Of a stretch of DNA of 64,000 nt, positions 1,633 through 44,764 are shown in pieces. The notes beneath the pieces were generated by a model. The model had not been told where the DNA came from. It made no database searches and worked only from the letters and a program-made list of their open reading frames with translations. Origin of the DNA: Myxococcota bacterium (GTDB lineage Bacteria > Myxococcota > XYA12-FULL-58-9 > JALHOP01); assembly GCA_022842935.1 (NCBI GenBank), contig JALHOP010000001.1:620001-684000 (forward strand), in the 5' to 3' direction. The translations under genes and the position numbers were made by a program. Within the stretch, counting starts at the first letter, position 1. Each line of letters starts with the position of its first letter.

Positions 1633-1833
1633 TTACCGATTGCCGCGTGAGCCGGCAAGGAAAGGACGATCTTTGCCGCCAAGTTGAACCAGGTCGCCCG
1701 TAGGCCGCGTTGGTCCGCAGGCGCCACAGGCTTTGGTGCACGCTTCGCCGCGCCGATAAATGGACCTCGCTAGCGCCGCCGCGAGGGTGACAGCGATACT
1801 CACGATGGCGATGTCGAGCCAGGCCGGCATCAT
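1633..1833 (-). CDS. FeoB-associated Cys-rich membrane protein
   Basis: A 66-residue protein with one N-terminal membrane span (about residues 3-22) followed by a short Cys-containing segment (Cys-Thr-Lys-Ala-Cys-Gly-Ala-Cys) and a polar tail. This architecture matches the small Cys-rich membrane proteins found after feoB in many bacteria, thought to assist ferrous iron uptake in place of FeoC. The start ATG overlaps the feoB stop by one base (TGATG), a sign of translational coupling; a second ATG follows at once. The assignment rests on context and the Cys cluster, since the protein is too short for firm homology by eye. Confidence 0.75.
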   Translation of the reverse strand: MMPAWLDIAIVSIAVTLAAALARSIYRRGEACTKACGACGPTRPTGDLVQLGGKDRPFLAGSRGNR

Positions 1834-3890
1834 CAGAACCCCAACGCACGTCCGCCTTGATAGACGAGGAGGCTTGCCAAGTAGGCGAGCGTGTTCATGT
1901 AGATTAGCTGCGCGATAGGCCAACGCCAGCTGTTCGTCTCGCGCTTCACGGTCGCCACGGTGGAGAGACACTGCATGGCGAGCACGAAGAACACCATGAG
2001 GCTCACACCAACCAGCGGGGTGAACCTGGGTTTACCCGTCGCTGGGTCCCTATCGGCGAGCAGCGCATCGCGCAGAGCGGGTGAGTCGGGCTCGACGTCG
2101 GCGTCGAGCGCATAGACCTGTCCCAGCGTGCTCACCAGCACTTCACGCGCGGCGAACGACGCCACGAGGCCAATGCCGATACGCCAATCGAAGCCCAAGG
2201 GGGCGATGACTGGCTCGATGACGTGTCCCAGCGTACCACCGAAGGAACGTTCCAGGCGCTCAGCGTCCGTCGCCGCGTCGTGTGCGGGGAAGGTGAGCAG
2301 CGCCCAGAGAATGACACTCAGAGCCACGATCACTACGCCGGTTTGCGTGACGAATACCCTGCAGCGCTCGATGACCAACCGAGCGACCGCTTTGGCGGAC
2401 GGCATCTTGTATGTGGGCAGCTCCATGATGAACGGTGGCGGCGGTGCCTTCAGCGCGGTGCGCTTGAGGACGAACGCCGTGGCCAGACCAGCGAGGAATC
2501 CCACGAGATACATCGCGGCCATCACGAGGCCGCCAACCGAGACGACGCCCCCGAGCTTGGGCGAGGAGGAGAAGACAGCGGCGATGACGAGCACGTAGAT
2601 GGGCAAGCGGGCCGAACAGCTCATGAACGGCGTGACCATGATGGTCACCAGGCGGTCGCGTCGTGATTCGATGGTCCGTGCGGCCATGATCGCAGGAACG
2701 GCGCAGGCAAAGCCGCTCATCAGGGGCACGAACGCTTTGCCGTGGAGGCCCACGCGACGCATGACACGATCGAGGAGAAAAGCGGCGCGCGCAAGGTAGC
2801 CGCTCTCCTCGAGCAAAGTCAGCAACAGGAACAGGAAGGCGATCTGCGGCACGAAGACCAAGACGCTACCGACACCGGCGAGCAGGCCGTTGATGAGTAG
2901 AGAGCGCGTGAGGCTCTCGGGAATGAGCGCGTTCAGTTGGTCCGCTAAAGCGCCGATCAGCCACTCGACGCCGTCCATGAAGGGTTGGGCCCAAAAGAAG
3001 ATGGTTTGAAACACGACCATCATGGTGAGCATGAAAACGACGAAGCCCCAGATGGGGTGCAGGAGGACCTTGTCGACACGCGTGGTGAGACTGTCCTCGG
3101 TCACCAGGCGCGCGTCGAGGACACCATCGATGAGTCTGTCGATGATGGTGTAGCGCGCCTCGATAACGCGGCGCGAAAAGGATCCCGGGGTATTCGCATC
3201 GAGACTCTGACGCGCTGCCGCGACACGCTTCTCCAAATCGTCGTTCTCGGCGAAATGAAGGTCGCGGAGATTCGAGGTGAGGAGCCAGGTCACGTCGCCG
3301 GCCGTGCGCTTGAGGTCCCCCGTTAGCGCCGCGATGGTGATCCCGTCCGCTTCGGTGAGGCCGAGTGGGAAGCGCTGTGGCTTGCTGGGTGCGACGAGAG
3401 CGTCGTCGATGGTTCGCAATAACGTCTCAAGGCCTTGGCCGTAGCGTGCCGAGAGGGGCACCACCGGCACGCCGAGCCGCCGCGAGAGCTCGACGTGGTC
3501 GATCTTGAGCCGACGTTTCTCGGCAACGTCGATCATGTTGAGCGCGACGACCAGCGGGACTTCGAGCTCGATGAGCTGGAGGACGAGATAGAGCGCCCGC
3601 GCAAGGTTGGTGGCGTCGGCGACGCAGACCACGAGCTTTGGACGCTCGCCTGTGAGCCTGCCGGTCAACACATGGTGGGCGATCTCTTCTTCCGCGGACC
3701 GCGCCACCAGGCTGTAGCAGCCAGGGAGATCGATGAGCTGCGCCGTCTGCCCCGAGGGTAACGCTACGGGCGCGATTTTTCGTTCGACGGTGACGCCGGG
3801 ATAGTTGCCGACCTTGGCGCGCGCGCCGGTGACTGCGTTGAACAGCGTGCTCTTTCCCGCGTTGGGATTGCCGGCGATCGCGATCTGCAT
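1833..3890 (-). CDS. feoB: FeoB ferrous iron transporter
   Basis: A 685-residue ferrous iron permease of the inner membrane. The N-terminal G domain shows G1 (GNPNAGKST, residues 7-15), G3 (DLPG, 54-57) and G4 (NMID, 118-121), then a helical regulatory domain, then many membrane spans in the typical FeoB core with two Gate-like halves between about residues 275 and 685. Length is normal for the shorter FeoB group. The ATG overlaps the feoA stop by one base and the FeoB stop overlaps the Cys-rich protein, so the three are translationally coupled. Iron control is expected through the promoter region upstream of feoA. Confidence is high because all nucleotide-binding motifs are intact. Confidence 0.97.
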   Translation of the reverse strand: MQIAIAGNPNAGKSTLFNAVTGARAKVGNYPGVTVERKIAPVALPSGQTAQLIDLPGCYSLVARSAEEEIAHHVLTGRLTGERPKLVVCVADATNLARALYLVLQLIELEVPLVVALNMIDVAEKRRLKIDHVELSRRLGVPVVPLSARYGQGLETLLRTIDDALVAPSKPQRFPLGLTEADGITIAALTGDLKRTAGDVTWLLTSNLRDLHFAENDDLEKRVAAARQSLDANTPGSFSRRVIEARYTIIDRLIDGVLDARLVTEDSLTTRVDKVLLHPIWGFVVFMLTMMVVFQTIFFWAQPFMDGVEWLIGALADQLNALIPESLTRSLLINGLLAGVGSVLVFVPQIAFLFLLLTLLEESGYLARAAFLLDRVMRRVGLHGKAFVPLMSGFACAVPAIMAARTIESRRDRLVTIMVTPFMSCSARLPIYVLVIAAVFSSSPKLGGVVSVGGLVMAAMYLVGFLAGLATAFVLKRTALKAPPPPFIMELPTYKMPSAKAVARLVIERCRVFVTQTGVVIVALSVILWALLTFPAHDAATDAERLERSFGGTLGHVIEPVIAPLGFDWRIGIGLVASFAAREVLVSTLGQVYALDADVEPDSPALRDALLADRDPATGKPRFTPLVGVSLMVFFVLAMQCLSTVATVKRETNSWRWPIAQLIYMNTLAYLASLLVYQGGRALGF

Positions 3891-4153
3891 CAGGCTGTAA
3901 CGCGAATGAGCCGCGCCTGCGCTTTGCGCAGCGTCAACATGTAGCCGCGCAGGTTCACTTGCAGAGGGTCGCCCAGGAAGCCGCGTCGCACCAACGTGAC
4001 GCGTGTACCCCGCGTCATCCCCATCTCCATGAGACGTTCGCCGACCTCTCCGGGAACATCGACCGCGATGACGGTCGCAGTCGTGCCTGGCGTGAGGGCT
4101 GAAAGCGTCGATTGCGCAGCGTCGGACGACGCCGCGAGTGGGAGGGAGGTCAT
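3890..4153 (-). CDS. feoA: FeoA, FeoB-associated SH3-like protein
   Basis: An 87-residue cytosolic protein with the FeoA SH3-like fold: a short leader, then the pattern of Gly-Glu-Val-Gly-Glu-Arg-Leu-Met-Glu-Met-Gly-Met and Arg-Gly-x-x-Val-Thr-Leu-Val-Arg-Arg, ending with a Leu-Arg-Gly-Tyr-x-Leu-Thr-Leu-Arg segment close to the usual FeoA ending. FeoA interacts with FeoB and is needed for ferrous iron uptake in other bacteria. It is the first gene of the feoA-feoB-Cys-rich operon, with its stop overlapping the feoB start. A promoter with a Fur-like half site lies immediately upstream. Confidence 0.93.
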   Translation of the reverse strand: MTSLPLAASSDAAQSTLSALTPGTTATVIAVDVPGEVGERLMEMGMTRGTRVTLVRRGFLGDPLQVNLRGYMLTLRKAQARLIRVTA

Positions 4154-6760: not shown

Positions 6761-7588
6761 ATGAAGACATGGACGCAGCTTGGAGTGGCGGTTTGTTGTG
6801 TGGTGATGGGGGTTGCGTGTGGGGACGAGGAGGTCAGTACGGCGGAGGACCTGCCGGATGGGCCGCAGCTGGTCAACCCTGGCTTCCTCGCGTTTGGTCT
6901 GACGGCGCCGAATGCGCAGCGCGTTTCCCAGATCCCCATCGTCAACCTCGGCCGCGACCCCCTTACGATCGCGAGCGTGAACATCGCCGGACAAGACGCT
7001 GCGCGCTTTACGCTTGGCCAGCCCATCGAGAGCACCATCAATCCGCGCAGGGCCACTTCGATCCCCATTACATTTCGGCCGAACGCGGTGGGCGCTTACG
7101 TCGCGAACGTGACCATCAACAGCAACGCCGAGAACTTCCCCGAGTTCATCGTCGACGTCGTCGCGCCGTCGGGCAACGACGACGAGCCGAACCTCCAGGT
7201 TGCCGACAAGACCATTTCTATTACCGTCCCCGCCGGCGAGCCCGAGGGCCGCGGGGTGCTGCGCTACTACAACGTTGGTCGTGAGTCGCTCGTCATCACC
7301 GGCTATGCCTTCACCGGCGCGGGTGCGGCGAGCTTCAGCCTCGCGAATGGAACGCCACAGCCCGGCAACGCCTGCAAGCTCAACGACGTCGATGACTGCG
7401 CGCTGGGCCTGTTCTGCAAGCTCGAAGCACCCGATTCCGAGGATGGGATCTGCGCGCTGAGTGTTCCGGTGGCCGACCCGGTCGTGCTCGACATCTACTA
7501 CGCCGGCACTGGTAGCCAGACCGCGACCTTCCGCATTACGCCGGACGGCGGCAGTCCGGCCCAGGTGACCCTCAACGGTCAGCGCTAG
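6761..7588 (+). CDS. lipoprotein with ASH-like (choice-of-anchor D) repeats
   Basis: A 275-residue lipoprotein. The signal peptide ends in Gly-Val-Ala-Cys (Cys20) followed by an acidic linker. The mature part has two immunoglobulin-like modules of the ASH / choice-of-anchor D kind: segments such as Leu-Gly-Arg-Asp-Pro-Leu-Thr-Ile and Ile-Thr-Phe-Arg-Pro-Asn-Ala-Val-Gly followed by Asn-Ser-Asn-Ala-Glu, and a second copy with Asn-Val-Gly-Arg-Glu-Ser-Leu-Val-Ile. Between them is a Cys-rich insert (about residues 195-225) like the short Cys modules in myxobacterial surface proteins. ATG at 6761 was chosen over a GTG at 6746 because the signal sequence starts there. It faces away from the EGF-like lipoprotein gene. 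Confidence 0.82.
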   Translation: MKTWTQLGVAVCCVVMGVACGDEEVSTAEDLPDGPQLVNPGFLAFGLTAPNAQRVSQIPIVNLGRDPLTIASVNIAGQDAARFTLGQPIESTINPRRATSIPITFRPNAVGAYVANVTINSNAENFPEFIVDVVAPSGNDDEPNLQVADKTISITVPAGEPEGRGVLRYYNVGRESLVITGYAFTGAGAASFSLANGTPQPGNACKLNDVDDCALGLFCKLEAPDSEDGICALSVPVADPVVLDIYYAGTGSQTATFRITPDGGSPAQVTLNGQR

Positions 7589-7741
7589 GCCGACAAGCGT
7601 AGCAACCTGAACGGTCTGCCCTCGGGACCACCGAGGCTACCTCCGCGACGTGCCTCTTTGACACGCGTCTGCGGTCGTGTGCGACGAACGCATGGTCGGC
7701 CCCAACCGATAATGCGTTCGACCGTCGTGAGGAGCTGCCAG

Positions 7742-8038
7742 ATGACGAGCCGTGCCTGCGGTTGCACACCGAGCCCCGCCTATAATGCCTACACGTCCCA
7801 GTGGGAGATGGAGTGTCCCGGCGCGCAGCCCACCTACAATCCGTATTCGGGCAAGTTCGAGCTCGCGCAGCCGGGCGCCGTGCCGATCCACAATCCGCAC
7901 ACTGGTCAATGGGAGATGGCGAGCCCCGGCTCTGTGCCGCGGTTCAACCCCCATACGGGCGGGTACGAAGTCGCGCAGGCGTGCGCGACTCCCGTTTACA
8001 ACCCGTTCACGAGCAAATTCGAGCTCGCCCCCAAGTAA
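7742..8038 (+). CDS. protein of five 18-residue Tyr-Asn-Pro repeats
   Basis: A 98-residue protein whose residues 11-98 are five in-register 18-residue repeats with the pattern Pro-x-[Tyr/His/Phe]-Asn-Pro-x-[Thr/Ser]-[Gly/Ser]-x-[Trp/Phe/Tyr]-Glu-[Met/Leu/Val], usually ending in Pro-Gly-Ala. The copies start at residues 11, 29, 47, 65 and 83. The N-terminus has a Cys-Gly-Cys and there is no signal peptide or membrane span. The start at 7742 has a GAGGAG ribosome site seven bases upstream, so the gene looks real. I know of no function for this repeat; the regular aromatic-Asn-Pro-Gly turns suggest a small beta-repeat structure. It is convergent with cysK. Confidence 0.8.
   Translation: MTSRACGCTPSPAYNAYTSQWEMECPGAQPTYNPYSGKFELAQPGAVPIHNPHTGQWEMASPGSVPRFNPHTGGYEVAQACATPVYNPFTSKFELAPK
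7772..8035 (+). repeat. tandem 54-bp coding repeats (x5)
   Basis: Five diverged 54-base units begin at 7772, 7826, 7880, 7934 and 7988 (the last one is 48 bases). Each encodes one 18-residue unit of the small repeat protein. The DNA copies differ much more than the protein pattern, so selection on the protein, not recent slippage, keeps them alike. Confidence 0.85.
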
Positions 8039-8110
8039 AGCGGTATGCACACCGTCCCGCGCGCCCCTGTCACCCGGACGCTCGAAGGCGGCCCCACCTG
8101 AAGACCGCTG

Positions 8111-9028
8111 CTAAAACAGATTCTCGACGGAAAGGTAGCGCTCGCCCGTGTCGTAGCAAAAGGTCAAGACGCGTGACCCGTTCGGGATGTCGGCGAGCTT
8201 TTGATTGACCCCCGCGAGGGATGCGCCCGAGGAGACGCCGAGGAAGATCGCTTCTTCACGGGCTGCTCGTTTGGCGAAGGCGAATGCGTCTTCGTCAGCG
8301 ACCTGGATCGTCCCGTCGAGGATCGCTCGATTCAGGTTATTGGGGATGAAATTGGCGCCGATGCCCTGAATGGTGTGCGGTGCTGGCTGTCCGCCGCTGA
8401 TGAGCGGTGACTTCGCCGGTTCGACCGCGAAGACCTTCAGCTTTGGCCACTTCGTTTTGAGCACCTCGCCGCAGGCGCTTATATGTCCGCCCGTGCCGAC
8501 GCCCGTGATCAAGAAGTCGAGGCCCTCGGGAAAGTCCTCGACGATCTCGGCTGCGGTCGTGCGTCGATGGATCTCGACGTTCGACGGGTTGTCGAATTGC
8601 TGTGGCATCCACGCGCCAGGGGTCTCTCGGACCAGCTCCTGAGCACGCGCCACGGCGCCCTTCATACCTACCGCCCGCGGCGTTAGATCGAACTCCGCTC
8701 CATAGGCAGCCATTAAGCGACGACGCTCGACGCTCATCGATTCTGGCATGACCAGGATGAGGCGATAGCCCTTCACGGCCGCCACCATGGCAAGGCCGAT
8801 GCCCGTGTTGCCGGAGGTTGGCTCGATGATGACGCTGCCTTTCTTCAAGACGCCGCGCTTCTCCGCGTCTTCGATCATCGACACCGCGATGCGATCTTTG
8901 ATGCTGCCACCTGGATTTGCGCGCTCGAGCTTGCACCACACCTCGACGTCCGGGCGGTGCGCGAAGAGACGGTTGATGCGCACATGAGGGGTCTTTCCGA
9001 TGGTCGCGAGGATGTCATTGGCTTTCAC
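8111..9028 (-). CDS. cysK: cysteine synthase A (O-acetylserine sulfhydrylase)
   Basis: A 305-residue PLP enzyme that makes cysteine from O-acetylserine and sulfide in the cytoplasm. The Schiff-base Lys is K44 in Ser-Ile-Lys-Asp-Arg. The substrate/asparagine loop Pro-Thr-Ser-Gly-Asn-Thr-Gly lies at 70-76 and the phosphate-binding Gly-Val-Gly-Thr-Gly-Gly at 176-181. Length and motifs fit CysK; CysM or a cystathionine beta-synthase-like enzyme is less likely because of the partner gene. It starts with GTG at 9028, five bases after AAGGAG. It lies 14 bases downstream of the serine acetyltransferase gene, so the two steps of cysteine synthesis form one operon. Confidence 0.95.
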
Positions 9029-9042
9029 AGGCTCTCCTTGAG

Positions 9043-9867
9043 TTAGATGCTGAAGTCGACGATGAGGTCACCGGTGTCGGTGCGCGGACGCGCGTCACTG
9101 CGTCGATCGACGAGAGAAAACGCAGGTACGCTCTTCGTCACGAAGGCGTTTCCAGAGACCACGCTGTCATGACCGATGACGGTCTCGCCGCCGAGAATGG
9201 TTGCGTTGGCATACACAACGACCCGGTCTTCGAGTGTTGGGTGGCGCTTGCTACCAGCCTTGCGCTTCTCCACGGTCAAAGCGCCGATGGTGACGCCCTG
9301 ATAGAGCATCACGCCGTTGCCAATCACCGCAGTCTCGCCAATGACGACGCCGCAGCCGTGGTCGATCATGAAGCGTCGCCCGATCGACGCACCTGGGTGG
9401 ATGTCGACACCGGTGCGTTCGCGCGCGAGCTCGGCGATGAGTCGGGGCAGCACCGGGACCGCGGCTGCGTGCAGGACGTGGGCAACGCGATGGCAGACCG
9501 TCGCATAGAAGCCCGGGTAGGCCAGGATGACTTCGTCGATGGAACCGGCTGCTGGGTCTCCATGAAACAACGCCTCAGCGTCCTCGCGGGAGGCCTGCCA
9601 GACCGTGGGAAGAGCGGCACCAAAGGCCGCCACGGCGGAGGCCTCGCCACCAACGGCTTCGAGCAAGTCCTCTAAAGCGGATGTCGTCTCGTCGAGATCC
9701 CTAGCGACGGTCTCTGGTGTGCAGTCGCGTCCTTCCGCGAAGTGGGGAAACAAGAGCGCAAGAGTGCGTTGCAAAAACGCCTGCGTACGTGGGCGCAGAT
9801 CGGTGGGAGACAAATGCGCTCGGCGTGCTGCCGTGAGCCGCGTCAAGAACTCCAATCGATCGGACAT
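9043..9867 (-). CDS. cysE: serine O-acetyltransferase
   Basis: A 274-residue serine acetyltransferase, the first step of cysteine synthesis (serine plus acetyl-CoA). An N-terminal helical domain (about 1-130) is followed by the left-handed beta-helix of hexapeptide repeats, with the family signature [11 protein letters not shown] and Leu-Tyr-Gln-Gly-Val-Thr-Ile-Gly. The His of Asp-His and the Asp before it are the catalytic pair in known SATs. It is the longer EpsC/CysE type. It lies upstream of cysK in the same operon, and the two products usually form the cysteine synthase complex; here the C-terminus ends in Phe-Ser-Ile, and a C-terminal Ile is what CysK binds. Confidence 0.93.
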
Positions 9868-38826: not shown

Positions 38827-38910
38827 TGCGGTAGGAGAGACTCGAACTCACACGGTATTTCTACCGCCAGCCCCTCAAGCTGGTGCGTCTACCAATTCCG
38901 CCACTACCGC
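38827..38910 (-). tRNA. tRNA-Leu (anticodon GAG)
   Basis: A class II tRNA read on the minus strand. The 7-base acceptor stem pairs (GCGGTAG with CTACCGC), a discriminator A is at 38827 and CCA is not encoded. The D arm has the typical Leu form with Gly-Gly (GG) in its loop, the anticodon stem CCAGC/GCTGG encloses TTGAGGG giving anticodon GAG, and a long variable arm follows. In the T arm, the second pair of the stem is a T-T mismatch. It is the first gene before secG. Confidence 0.95.
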
Positions 38911-43040: not shown

Positions 43041-44764
43041 GGCGCACCCATGGGAGTATGGTTCTCAGAACGGGCGGCGTGCGGCAAGAGCACCTCGACC
43101 GTGGTTCCTTCGCCCGGCGCGCTTTTTATGGCGATCGAGCCGGAATGGTCATCCACGAAGCGCTTGACGATCGTGAGACCGAGGCCCGTGCCGCCCGCCT
43201 TGTCGCTGAAGAAGGGCTCGAAAATACGGGCACGTGTGGCCTCGTTCATGCCCGGCCCCTGATCGCGAACGCTGAGCCTCAAACCTTCGTCGGAGGTGGA
43301 CATGGCGATGAACAGACCGTCGCCGCGGCGCATGGCGTCGATCGCGTTCTTGGCGAGGTTATGGAGAATGCGCTTTACGCGTCCCTGGTCGACGACGGCG
43401 AAGCCCGGCACGCGCTCGATCGTCAGCTTGATTCCGCGCGGCTCGCTGGTGTGGCGCAGGGTCTCGTGCAGGTCGGCCGCGAGGTTCTCGAGGTTCACCT
43501 CAGCGGCGCGCAGGCGGGTGTCCCCCCTGGCGAAGGCGAGGAGGTCGCCGATCATCGCCATCATCGCGTCGATTTGCGTAAGGATGCGACTGCAGCGGTA
43601 CGACCTCTGGGCCGGGTCGTCGTCGTCCTCCGCCATCAACTGGGCGTAGCCGGATACCGCCGTCATTGGAGTTCGCAGGTCGTGCGCGACGCTCGCAAGC
43701 ATCTGCCCGACGGCCGCCAAGCGTTCGTTGGTGCTGCGGAGCAGACGTTCGTCGGCGTTGGTGATCACGCGGGATAGCTGAGCCGCGACCACGGTCATCG
43801 TCTTGATGTCGTCGTCCTTGAAGCCGGCTCGGACGTCCCCGCGCGGCTCGGGCTGCGAAACCTCGAAAGCACCAATGATGCGGCGGTCCCAAACCAGCGG
43901 CACGCGAAGGATGCTGTGCTCCGGCATCGAAGCGCCGTAGTCGGCGACCAGTGCCAGCGGCTCGTTGGCAGTGACTGCCTCGACGCTCAGTCGATCGTGG
44001 CCCGCGAACCGGTAGATGACCGGTGTTCCTTGACCCGGACGCAGCAGTACCGCGGCAGCGCGCGCGTGAAGCTGGGCGCAGACCAACGTAAGCGCAGAGG
44101 TGAGGAGCCCGCGGACCTCGCTCGCTGCCGAGGCCTCTTGCTCGAGCGCGTAGAGCAGATCGAGCTCGCGATTGCGTTTGAGGAGCTCCTCGGAGAGCCG
44201 TGCGTTTTCGAGCACGAAGGAGATCTGGGCCGCGATTGCGGTCAACAGACCCATGTCCTGCTCGGTGAAGGGGCCACCTCGCCGATTGAGGACTTGGACC
44301 ACGCCTAGGAGCTCGCCCTCGGGGTCGAGCAAGGGCGCTGCGGCGACCGACCGCGTTCGAAAACCCGTTGTCTTGTCGACCGCAGGGTTGAAGCGATCGT
44401 CTGCGTAGGCATCCACGACGATCGCCGGCTCACGGTGCTCGGCGACCCAGCCGGCGATGCCGAGGCCCACGCGGAGGCGAATCTCGCGAACCTCCATGCC
44501 CTCGGCAATCTTGCTCCAGATCTCGTTCGCGTCCGCGTCGTAGAGAAAAAGGGTCGTGCGGGCAGCGCGCATCAGTCGCGTGACTTGAACCACGACCTGG
44601 GCAAGCAGCTGGTCGACACCAACCGTGTGAGCCAGGGATTCACCAATGGCTCGCACTGCGGCGAGCTGCTCGGCCAGGCTTTCGCGCGAGCTAAGTCGCG
44701 GTTTTCCTGCCTGTTTCCGTGTCTGTTTCCGTGTCACACCTGATTTCTTGGTCTTAGGCGACAT
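43037..44764 (-). CDS. soluble GAF-GAF histidine kinase
   Basis: A 575-residue sensor kinase without membrane spans. Two GAF domains (about 48-190 and 205-345) are followed by HisKA, with the phospho-His361 in Ala-His-Asp-Leu-Arg-Thr-Pro, and HATPase, with Asn in His-Asn-Leu-Ala-Lys-Asn-Ala and G boxes Asp-Gln-Gly-Pro-Gly-Met and Gly-Gly-Thr-Gly-Leu-Gly-Leu. No receiver domain. It would sense an intracellular small molecule. The ATG at 44764 has GGAG four bases upstream. It overlaps the Ser/Thr kinase gene; no response regulator is nearby, so the output partner is unknown. Confidence 0.95.
   Translation of the reverse strand: MSPKTKKSGVTRKQTRKQAGKPRLSSRESLAEQLAAVRAIGESLAHTVGVDQLLAQVVVQVTRLMRAARTTLFLYDADANEIWSKIAEGMEVREIRLRVGLGIAGWVAEHREPAIVVDAYADDRFNPAVDKTTGFRTRSVAAAPLLDPEGELLGVVQVLNRRGGPFTEQDMGLLTAIAAQISFVLENARLSEELLKRNRELDLLYALEQEASAASEVRGLLTSALTLVCAQLHARAAAVLLRPGQGTPVIYRFAGHDRLSVEAVTANEPLALVADYGASMPEHSILRVPLVWDRRIIGAFEVSQPEPRGDVRAGFKDDDIKTMTVVAAQLSRVITNADERLLRSTNERLAAVGQMLASVAHDLRTPMTAVSGYAQLMAEDDDDPAQRSYRCSRILTQIDAMMAMIGDLLAFARGDTRLRAAEVNLENLAADLHETLRHTSEPRGIKLTIERVPGFAVVDQGRVKRILHNLAKNAIDAMRRGDGLFIAMSTSDEGLRLSVRDQGPGMNEATRARIFEPFFSDKAGGTGLGLTIVKRFVDDHSGSIAIKSAPGEGTTVEVLLPHAARSENHTPMGAP

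Follow-up and report, generated by a model that had tools for sequence, protein, structure and literature searches.

The window, by which we mean the whole analyzed stretch of 64,000 nucleotides, carries at 7742-8038 (+ strand) a small gene for a protein made of five tandem 18-residue units. Its open reading frame starts with an ATG at 7742 and its stop codon ends at 8038, giving a product of 98 amino acids with a pI of 6.2 and no apparent signal peptide (throughout, signal-like segments were judged by eye on the sequences). A Shine-Dalgarno-like AGGAG (7730-7734, +) lies 7 nt ahead of the ATG, in line with the good ribosome site described in the first-pass annotation, and a search around the gene revealed no sigma-70-like promoter. 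Upstream lies a gene for an anchor-D-type lipoprotein (6764-7585; NCBIfam choice_anch_D). Downstream, a convergent gene for a PLP-dependent enzyme (8111-9028; Pfam PALP), which we take to be of the cysteine-synthase type, is followed by a hexapeptide-repeat transferase gene (9043-9867; Hexapep above and SATase_N below the cut-off), presumably of the serine-acetyltransferase type. This cysteine-pathway-like pair is adjoined by a cytochrome P450 gene (9932-11353; Pfam p450, E 1.5e-34). Elsewhere, the window holds a FeoB gene (1833-4153; Pfam FeoB_N, E 9.7e-56), with a small gene upstream that we assume to be FeoA from its looks, and a single tRNA, tRNA-Leu (gag), at 38827-38910. The neighboring lipoprotein and cysteine-synthase-type genes do not seem to point to any partner of the repeat protein.

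The stretch 7742-8038 is a real gene. Its frame has the best codon score of all six (0.11 bits/codon vs -0.06 to -0.51), and 82% of its third codon positions are G or C. One could nonetheless argue for a repeat left open by chance on high-G+C DNA, or for the antisense of another gene, as there is also an open frame on the opposite strand (137 aa, 7637-8050), the codon score stays below that of long genes (mean of the long ORFs, 0.36), and none of the phylum's other 194 genomes yielded a relative. We give this next to no credence: apart from the codon score, the third positions, and the Shine-Dalgarno site, significant relatives read in the same frame and on the same strand were found (plasmid tblastn, E 6e-8).

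The protein has a simple layout, namely the residues MTSRACG, five units of 18 residues, and a closing K. The N-terminal part (7742-7762, +) forms a CGC motif together with C8, and AlphaFold2 predicts it to be disordered, with a pLDDT under 50 for residues 1-5. According to the repeat alignment, the units follow one another on the + strand as unit 1, CTPSPAYNAYTSQWEMEC (7763-7816; predicted strands at residues 11-15 and 20-24), unit 2, PGAQPTYNPYSGKFELAQ (7817-7870; 29-33 and 38-42), unit 3, PGAVPIHNPHTGQWEMAS (7871-7924; 47-51 and 56-60), unit 4, PGSVPRFNPHTGGYEVAQ (7925-7978; 65-69 and 74-78), and unit 5, ACATPVYNPFTSKFELAP (7979-8032; 83-87 and 92-96), all strands being those of the AlphaFold2 model. 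The exact period of 18 residues that had been claimed for the protein is borne out by the Asn anchors at 14, 32, 50, 68, and 86 (0-based), which are spaced by 18, 18, 18, and 18, and by a BLOSUM62 self-comparison with peaks at lag 18 (164) and lag 36 (126). Not one of 5000 residue shuffles reached the lag-18 score (shuffle maximum 31), and in periodicity the protein ranks first among all 359 window ORFs with a length of 60-400 aa (z 16.3; next 5.8). The earlier wording of Tyr-Asn-Pro repeats needs some nuance: the five 18-residue units stand, but an exact Tyr-Asn-Pro occurs in units 2 and 5 only, with YNA in unit 1, HNP in unit 3, and FNP in unit 4. The runner-up in the periodicity ranking is an ORF at 44172-44408 with a lag of 38 (z 5.8).

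At the DNA level, the units share 39-67% identity, and a tandem-repeat tool did not list the 7742-8038 array. The identical residues across units (n = 74) are encoded by the same codon in 36 cases and by a different one in 38, which agrees with the first reading of diverged DNA underneath a conserved pattern. Because the DNA has diverged and the codons differ, the units seem to be of old date, and what has been conserved is their pattern at the protein level.

We assign proteins to a YNP 18-residue repeat family when they have tandem units of ~18 residues with an aromatic-Asn-Pro, a T/S-G turn, and an aromatic-Glu. The window protein belongs to it with its five units at a spacing of 18, and each of its alignments with 34 other members, some of them near-duplicates, scores higher than any of 100 shuffles. 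A tblastn search of plasmids yielded a hypothetical protein of Allomeiothermus silvanus (E 6e-8, 88% of the query) plus two Thermus proteins, and a full reading of all three revealed the same 18-residue unit. Profile scans returned 13 viral loci and, among named genomes, 10 loci, eight of them from Thermus/Meiothermus and two from metagenome-assembled genomes (MAGs) of Bradyrhizobium; a further 6 viral matches were obtained, 4 of which lie on contigs already found. In a phage collection, the repeat was found in 7 Thermus records, including phiYS40, and a distant member is encoded by Methylophilaceae phage P19250A. The suspicion that this is a real family was thus correct, as 18-residue YNPxTGxYE proteins exist in Deinococcota, Thermus phages, uncultured phages, and Bradyrhizobium MAGs.

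Counts per phylum and genus were made with a 20-row profile at a cut-off of E<=0.001. The profile search with the repeat, which had been proposed as a check, found homologs of the same period in 22 of 111 Deinococcota genomes. In the Bradyrhizobium genus sample, 2 of 146 genomes were positive, both already known, and the Pseudomonadota sample gave matches in 2 of 398. One of the latter (G204, L049) proved to be another kind of repeat, SNPFMSRFDSALADSILA, which brings the true count down to 1 of 398. The first-pass annotation had made its case depend on same-period homologs in related genomes. These homologs do exist, but mostly in other phyla, whereas in the own phylum only 1 of 195 genomes is positive, i.e., the window's own. 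Taken together, the family is scattered over hot-spring bacteria, phages, and a few other bacteria, and it is apparently undescribed.

The unit itself is well kept among the members. In 22 representatives, 61 of the 76 successive anchor spacings are exactly 18. Over 136 complete units, position 7 is aromatic in 85%, followed by Asn at position 8 (119/136) and Pro at position 9 (106/136), an aromatic residue at position 10 (63%), mostly Thr or Glu at position 11, and Gly at position 12 (66/136); position 14 is aromatic (91%), position 15 acidic (72%), and position 16 hydrophobic (74%). Like the window protein, most members from Deinococcota and Thermus phages have no apparent signal peptide. 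A hydrophobic, signal-like N-terminal segment is present in the Bradyrhizobium members and several uncultured-phage members, and N-terminal hydrophobic segments are seen in L018, L022, L025, L053, L054, and P19250A. Two copies (L029 on Meiothermus luteus contig 126 and L031 in Thermus sp. JCM 17653) exit the repeat frame near the C-terminus and look like frameshifted, decaying copies or assembly errors.

Several other matches were rejected. The four non-self matches in 58 relatives (L003-L006) look like chance matches. That in L003 is another repeat (PTGNTG...VAAPGA) within a 474-residue frame, that in L004 lies on the strand opposite another frame (presumably a phosphoketolase), and those in L005 and L006 are stretches of another protein, which we take to be monooxygenase-like. 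The L003 repeat (1501-1653) is an observation in its own right, as it reveals a different short tandem repeat encoded by a genome of the same phylum. For the weak matches in the own genome (L007-L009, E 0.24 to 1.6), scanning both strands for the motif gave nothing. Among the phage and plasmid matches at E 2-6, that in Halorubrum phage 7 was discarded since the annotated gene is on the other strand. Viral locus L055 is a candidate only, as the frame read there differs from that of the repeat. No relatives came out of viral scans with P0001, A8, A10, and the L089 protein.

No model in Pfam or NCBIfam fits the window protein, and PADLOC gave 0 families for it at E<=0.1, hence no anti-phage defense match. 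Among the scanned members, the exceptions are two that pass kelch models (L025 and L077, discussed below) and P0004, with a marginal 2C_adapt match (22.2 vs 22) in which no stretch passes singly. The phage branch is covered by phrog_28453, a cluster in PHROGs to which no function is attached. Strong matches to this cluster (E 1.6e-67 to 7.8e-10) comprise the phage members L013, L014, and L017 and the Thermus/Meiothermus proteins. The window protein itself matches weakly (E 0.0022, 19.1 bits, two stretches, the best at residues 13-41), a six-frame search of the window's own genome with phrog_28453 gave no match, and a match in B. subtilis came up at the lenient cut-off of E<=10. In the open-access library that was searched (subscription papers lie largely outside it), no paper was found that deals with this protein or names the motif or the TROVE-YbjN pairing described below. 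The family is apparently new; the hairpin-repeat architecture as such is known.

A structure prediction with the five copies had likewise been suggested as a check, and AlphaFold2 (18-row alignment) returned one β-hairpin per unit, with a mean pLDDT of 83.0 and a pTM of 0.64. The model has ten strands of exactly 5 residues, two per unit, joined by 4-residue turns. A six-unit phage member (15 sequences; pLDDT 80.9, pTM 0.59) is predicted with the same rhythm and thus also with one hairpin per unit: twelve strands, of which the outer ones count only 3 residues, with a helix where the signal-like segment lies at the N-terminus. The earlier remark that no known fold came to mind holds in so far as, next to the missing Pfam/NCBIfam model, Foldseek matched neither model to the PDB at E<=0.001, although a failed search is no proof of a new fold. 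Alignment with VIA-align reached Z>=2 for 0 of 996 chains with the window model and for 1 of 336 (Z 3.0) with the phage-member model. In BFVD, the best match is an 84-residue viral protein (E 0.018, probability 1.00, TM 0.49/0.56, rmsd 1.9, 25% identity), which we infer from its length to be P19250A_0037. The predicted hairpin fold is therefore consistent in two members and an independent BFVD model. Some caution is appropriate, as the pTM of 0.64 leaves the global shape uncertain, AlphaFold2 can favor regular β models on repetitive sequences, and the predicted strands may join into a single continuous sheet or be arranged as stacked hairpins.

If the predicted fold is right, the protein would have two very different faces. 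The strand partners in a unit would be 8-13, 7-14, 6-15, 5-16, and 4-17, which places positions 5, 7, 14, and 16 on a common face. In 97 units taken from 22 representatives, this face consists for 76% of VILMFYWC and for 5% of charged residues, whereas the opposite face has 12% and 42%, respectively. In each unit of the window protein, these positions hold Pro, Tyr/His/Phe, Trp/Phe/Tyr, and Met/Leu/Val, spelling PYWM, PYFL, PHWM, PFYV, and PYFL from unit 1 to 5. The opposite face (positions 4, 6, 8, 13, 15, and 17) is mostly polar and contains the invariant Asn and Glu. A strip of just one layer with such an aromatic face would not be stable by itself, and for that reason the monomer model may be wrong. 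The protein further has four Cys (6, 8, 25, and 81; DNA 7742-7816 and 7979-7990). C8 and C25 open and close unit 1 and would sit side by side in the predicted hairpin, so that a disulfide or metal site is possible there.

These features bring us to a proposal for the role of the protein. We think of a small all-β hairpin-repeat binding scaffold that would dock with its aromatic face on a partner or on another copy of itself, an explanation that we prefer to any other and believe about as much as we doubt it. Each 18-residue unit would be one β-hairpin, with a strand xPxYN, a tight turn PxTG, and a strand KFELA, and a second tight turn (QPGA) would lead into the next unit. NPxTG and xPGA are classical tight-turn sequences. 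As the hairpins would be joined by tight turns, ten short strands would succeed each other along the chain, and because alternate positions point in opposite ways, an amphipathic strip with an aromatic and a polar face would result. The aromatic face could then pack on a partner or on another copy of the protein, the number of units would set the length of the surface, and the role would be that of a passive binding scaffold. The window protein is probably cytoplasmic. The variation in both neighbors and export among the members speaks for a binding surface of a general kind and against an enzyme.

That variation is most evident from the gene neighborhoods. In Deinococcota, 17 loci chosen from the matches in the 22 positive genomes were fetched, of which 6 have TROVE and YbjN genes, 4 have IspD, 3 have PspA, 2 have an M29 peptidase, and 2 have none of these (Pfam confirmed two TROVE and two YbjN representatives, and a single one for IspD, PspA, and M29). 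The TROVE gene, a Ro-type gene, mostly occurs in the order TROVE-YbjN-repeat, as seen in the Thermales loci L083, L084, L085, L090, L091, and L092. A second type of repeat gene precedes a PspA/IM30 gene in three Meiothermus-type genomes (L080, L081, and L082). Partners thus seem to vary between lineages, with TROVE and YbjN, IspD, PspA, M29 peptidase, or helicase genes adjoining, and in the loci examined, no neighbor that would point to a binding partner is constant across lineages.

The helicases deserve separate attention, as they lie at the basis of the main rival explanation, in which the gene is a mobile accessory gene of phage/plasmid type, its product acts as an adaptor for replication/recombination helicases, and the window copy is a stray transfer. 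A replication or recombination gene was found within about 3 kb in 7 of 8 phage contexts, a count for which no control set was made and which leaves out the viral loci L015, L016, L018-L020, L023, L024, and L055. DnaB overlaps the repeat gene by 14 nt in phiYS40, and the other contexts show DnaB/Toprim (L053), a helicase (L054), AAA_24 (L022), RecA (L014), an annotated recombinase (P19250A), and a RecT-like match below the cut-off (L025). In addition, a RecQ/DEAD/exonuclease fusion directly follows the repeat gene in 3 of the 17 Deinococcota loci (with a 4-nt overlap in L093), and the distribution is patchy (1/195, 2/146, and 22/111 genomes). However, phage early regions are full of replication and recombination genes, so the association could arise without any coupling, and the eighth context (L013) has no such gene among the part of its neighbors that was scanned. 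Moreover, the hydrophobic N-termini of six phage members are unsuited to a cytoplasmic helicase partner, and the window copy has no helicase neighbor. We therefore regard an adaptor function as rather unlikely and retain the binding scaffold.

A bolder form of the scaffold proposal, to which we attach only limited belief, is that phages, Thermales, and scattered bacteria have in common an unsolved fold, in which hairpins of 18 residues line up at least ten antiparallel strands of 5 residues each into a strip with an all-aromatic face, offering a length-tunable surface recruited by Ro/TROVE-YbjN operons, phage replication modules, and PspA loci. If the prediction holds, this would be a very small and highly regular hairpin-repeat family for which we found no fitting Pfam/NCBIfam model and no solved relative. 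Such a regular, two-faced strand ladder would be of interest to repeat-protein design and to the boundary between folded and aggregating sheets, and the TROVE-YbjN-repeat order that recurs in Thermales offers a way into Ro-type RNA-binding operons. As proteins from thermophiles and cultivated Thermus phages are usually easy to make, both fold and partner are directly testable.

When the family is compared to known systems, the choline-binding repeats (CW_binding) come to mind, which are likewise tandem, aromatic-rich arrangements of a hairpin and a short linker. They bind choline between aromatic residues of adjacent hairpins. In a passage of PMC4471590, choline-binding modules are described as a β-β-solenoid of hairpins with short linkers. 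By analogy, the window family could be a ligand-binding module in which aromatic pockets between hairpins hold a cell-wall or surface component, and the hairpin plus linker of about 18-20 residues, the regular aromatic ladder, and the secreted appearance of several members would suit this idea. It is nevertheless improbable in our view, somewhat more so than the helicase adaptor: no choline-binding Pfam model matches the window protein at E<=10, the LytB choline-binding module appears in Foldseek at E 7.1 with a TM of 0.12 only, and a signal peptide is not apparent in the window protein or in most members from Deinococcota. The window family also differs in having tight turns at both hairpin ends.

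A second resemblance is to kelch, as the YNPxTGxWE stretch resembles a piece of a kelch repeat, and each unit might be imagined as one turn of a kelch blade in a degenerate or miniature repeat. Members L025 (Kelch_6, 27.7 vs 25.3; Kelch_1, 23.6 vs 20.1) and L077 (Kelch_1, 22.5 vs 20.1) pass the Pfam cut-offs, kelch chains are the sole PDB matches of the family profile (best E 0.0037), and kelch proteins or kelch-derived designs head both Foldseek lists (best E 0.089, probability 0.10) as well as the phmmer list of the window protein. On inspection, however, the matches are 11-25 residues short, mostly with none passing singly, the TM-scores are 0.13-0.21, and the low phmmer E-values of SAKe designs reflect the added scores of six identical copies, each worth 8-9.5 bits; Pfam gave no kelch match for the window protein at E<=10, and no blade is predicted for the family. 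A kelch unit counts about 44-56 residues and has a double glycine. With a period of 18 instead of about 50 and no double glycine at a fixed place, membership of the kelch family is ruled out, and even a distant, miniaturized relation strikes us as highly implausible.

In terms of architecture, a close class is that of the β-hairpin repeat proteins (Roche et al. 2018, cited in PMC7778985). These share one hairpin per repeat with the window protein (by prediction), and Foldseek matched no solved member at E<=0.001. In terms of sequence, the hypothetical proteins encoded on plasmids and chromosomes of Thermus, Meiothermus, and Allomeiothermus (e.g., WP_013159691.1) have the same 18-residue unit, a length of 88-92 aa, and, again, no apparent signal peptide. 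They differ by a third unit that is often degenerate, with a 17-residue spacing, by a more acidic pI (4.5-5.2 vs 6.2), and by genes that often adjoin YbjN/TROVE genes, whereas the window gene does not. Finally, the phrog_28453 protein of phiYS40 (gp15, YS40_015, ABJ91409.1) has the same repeat as the window protein, with units spaced by 18, 19, 19, and 18 residues in the phage and by exactly 18 in the window protein.
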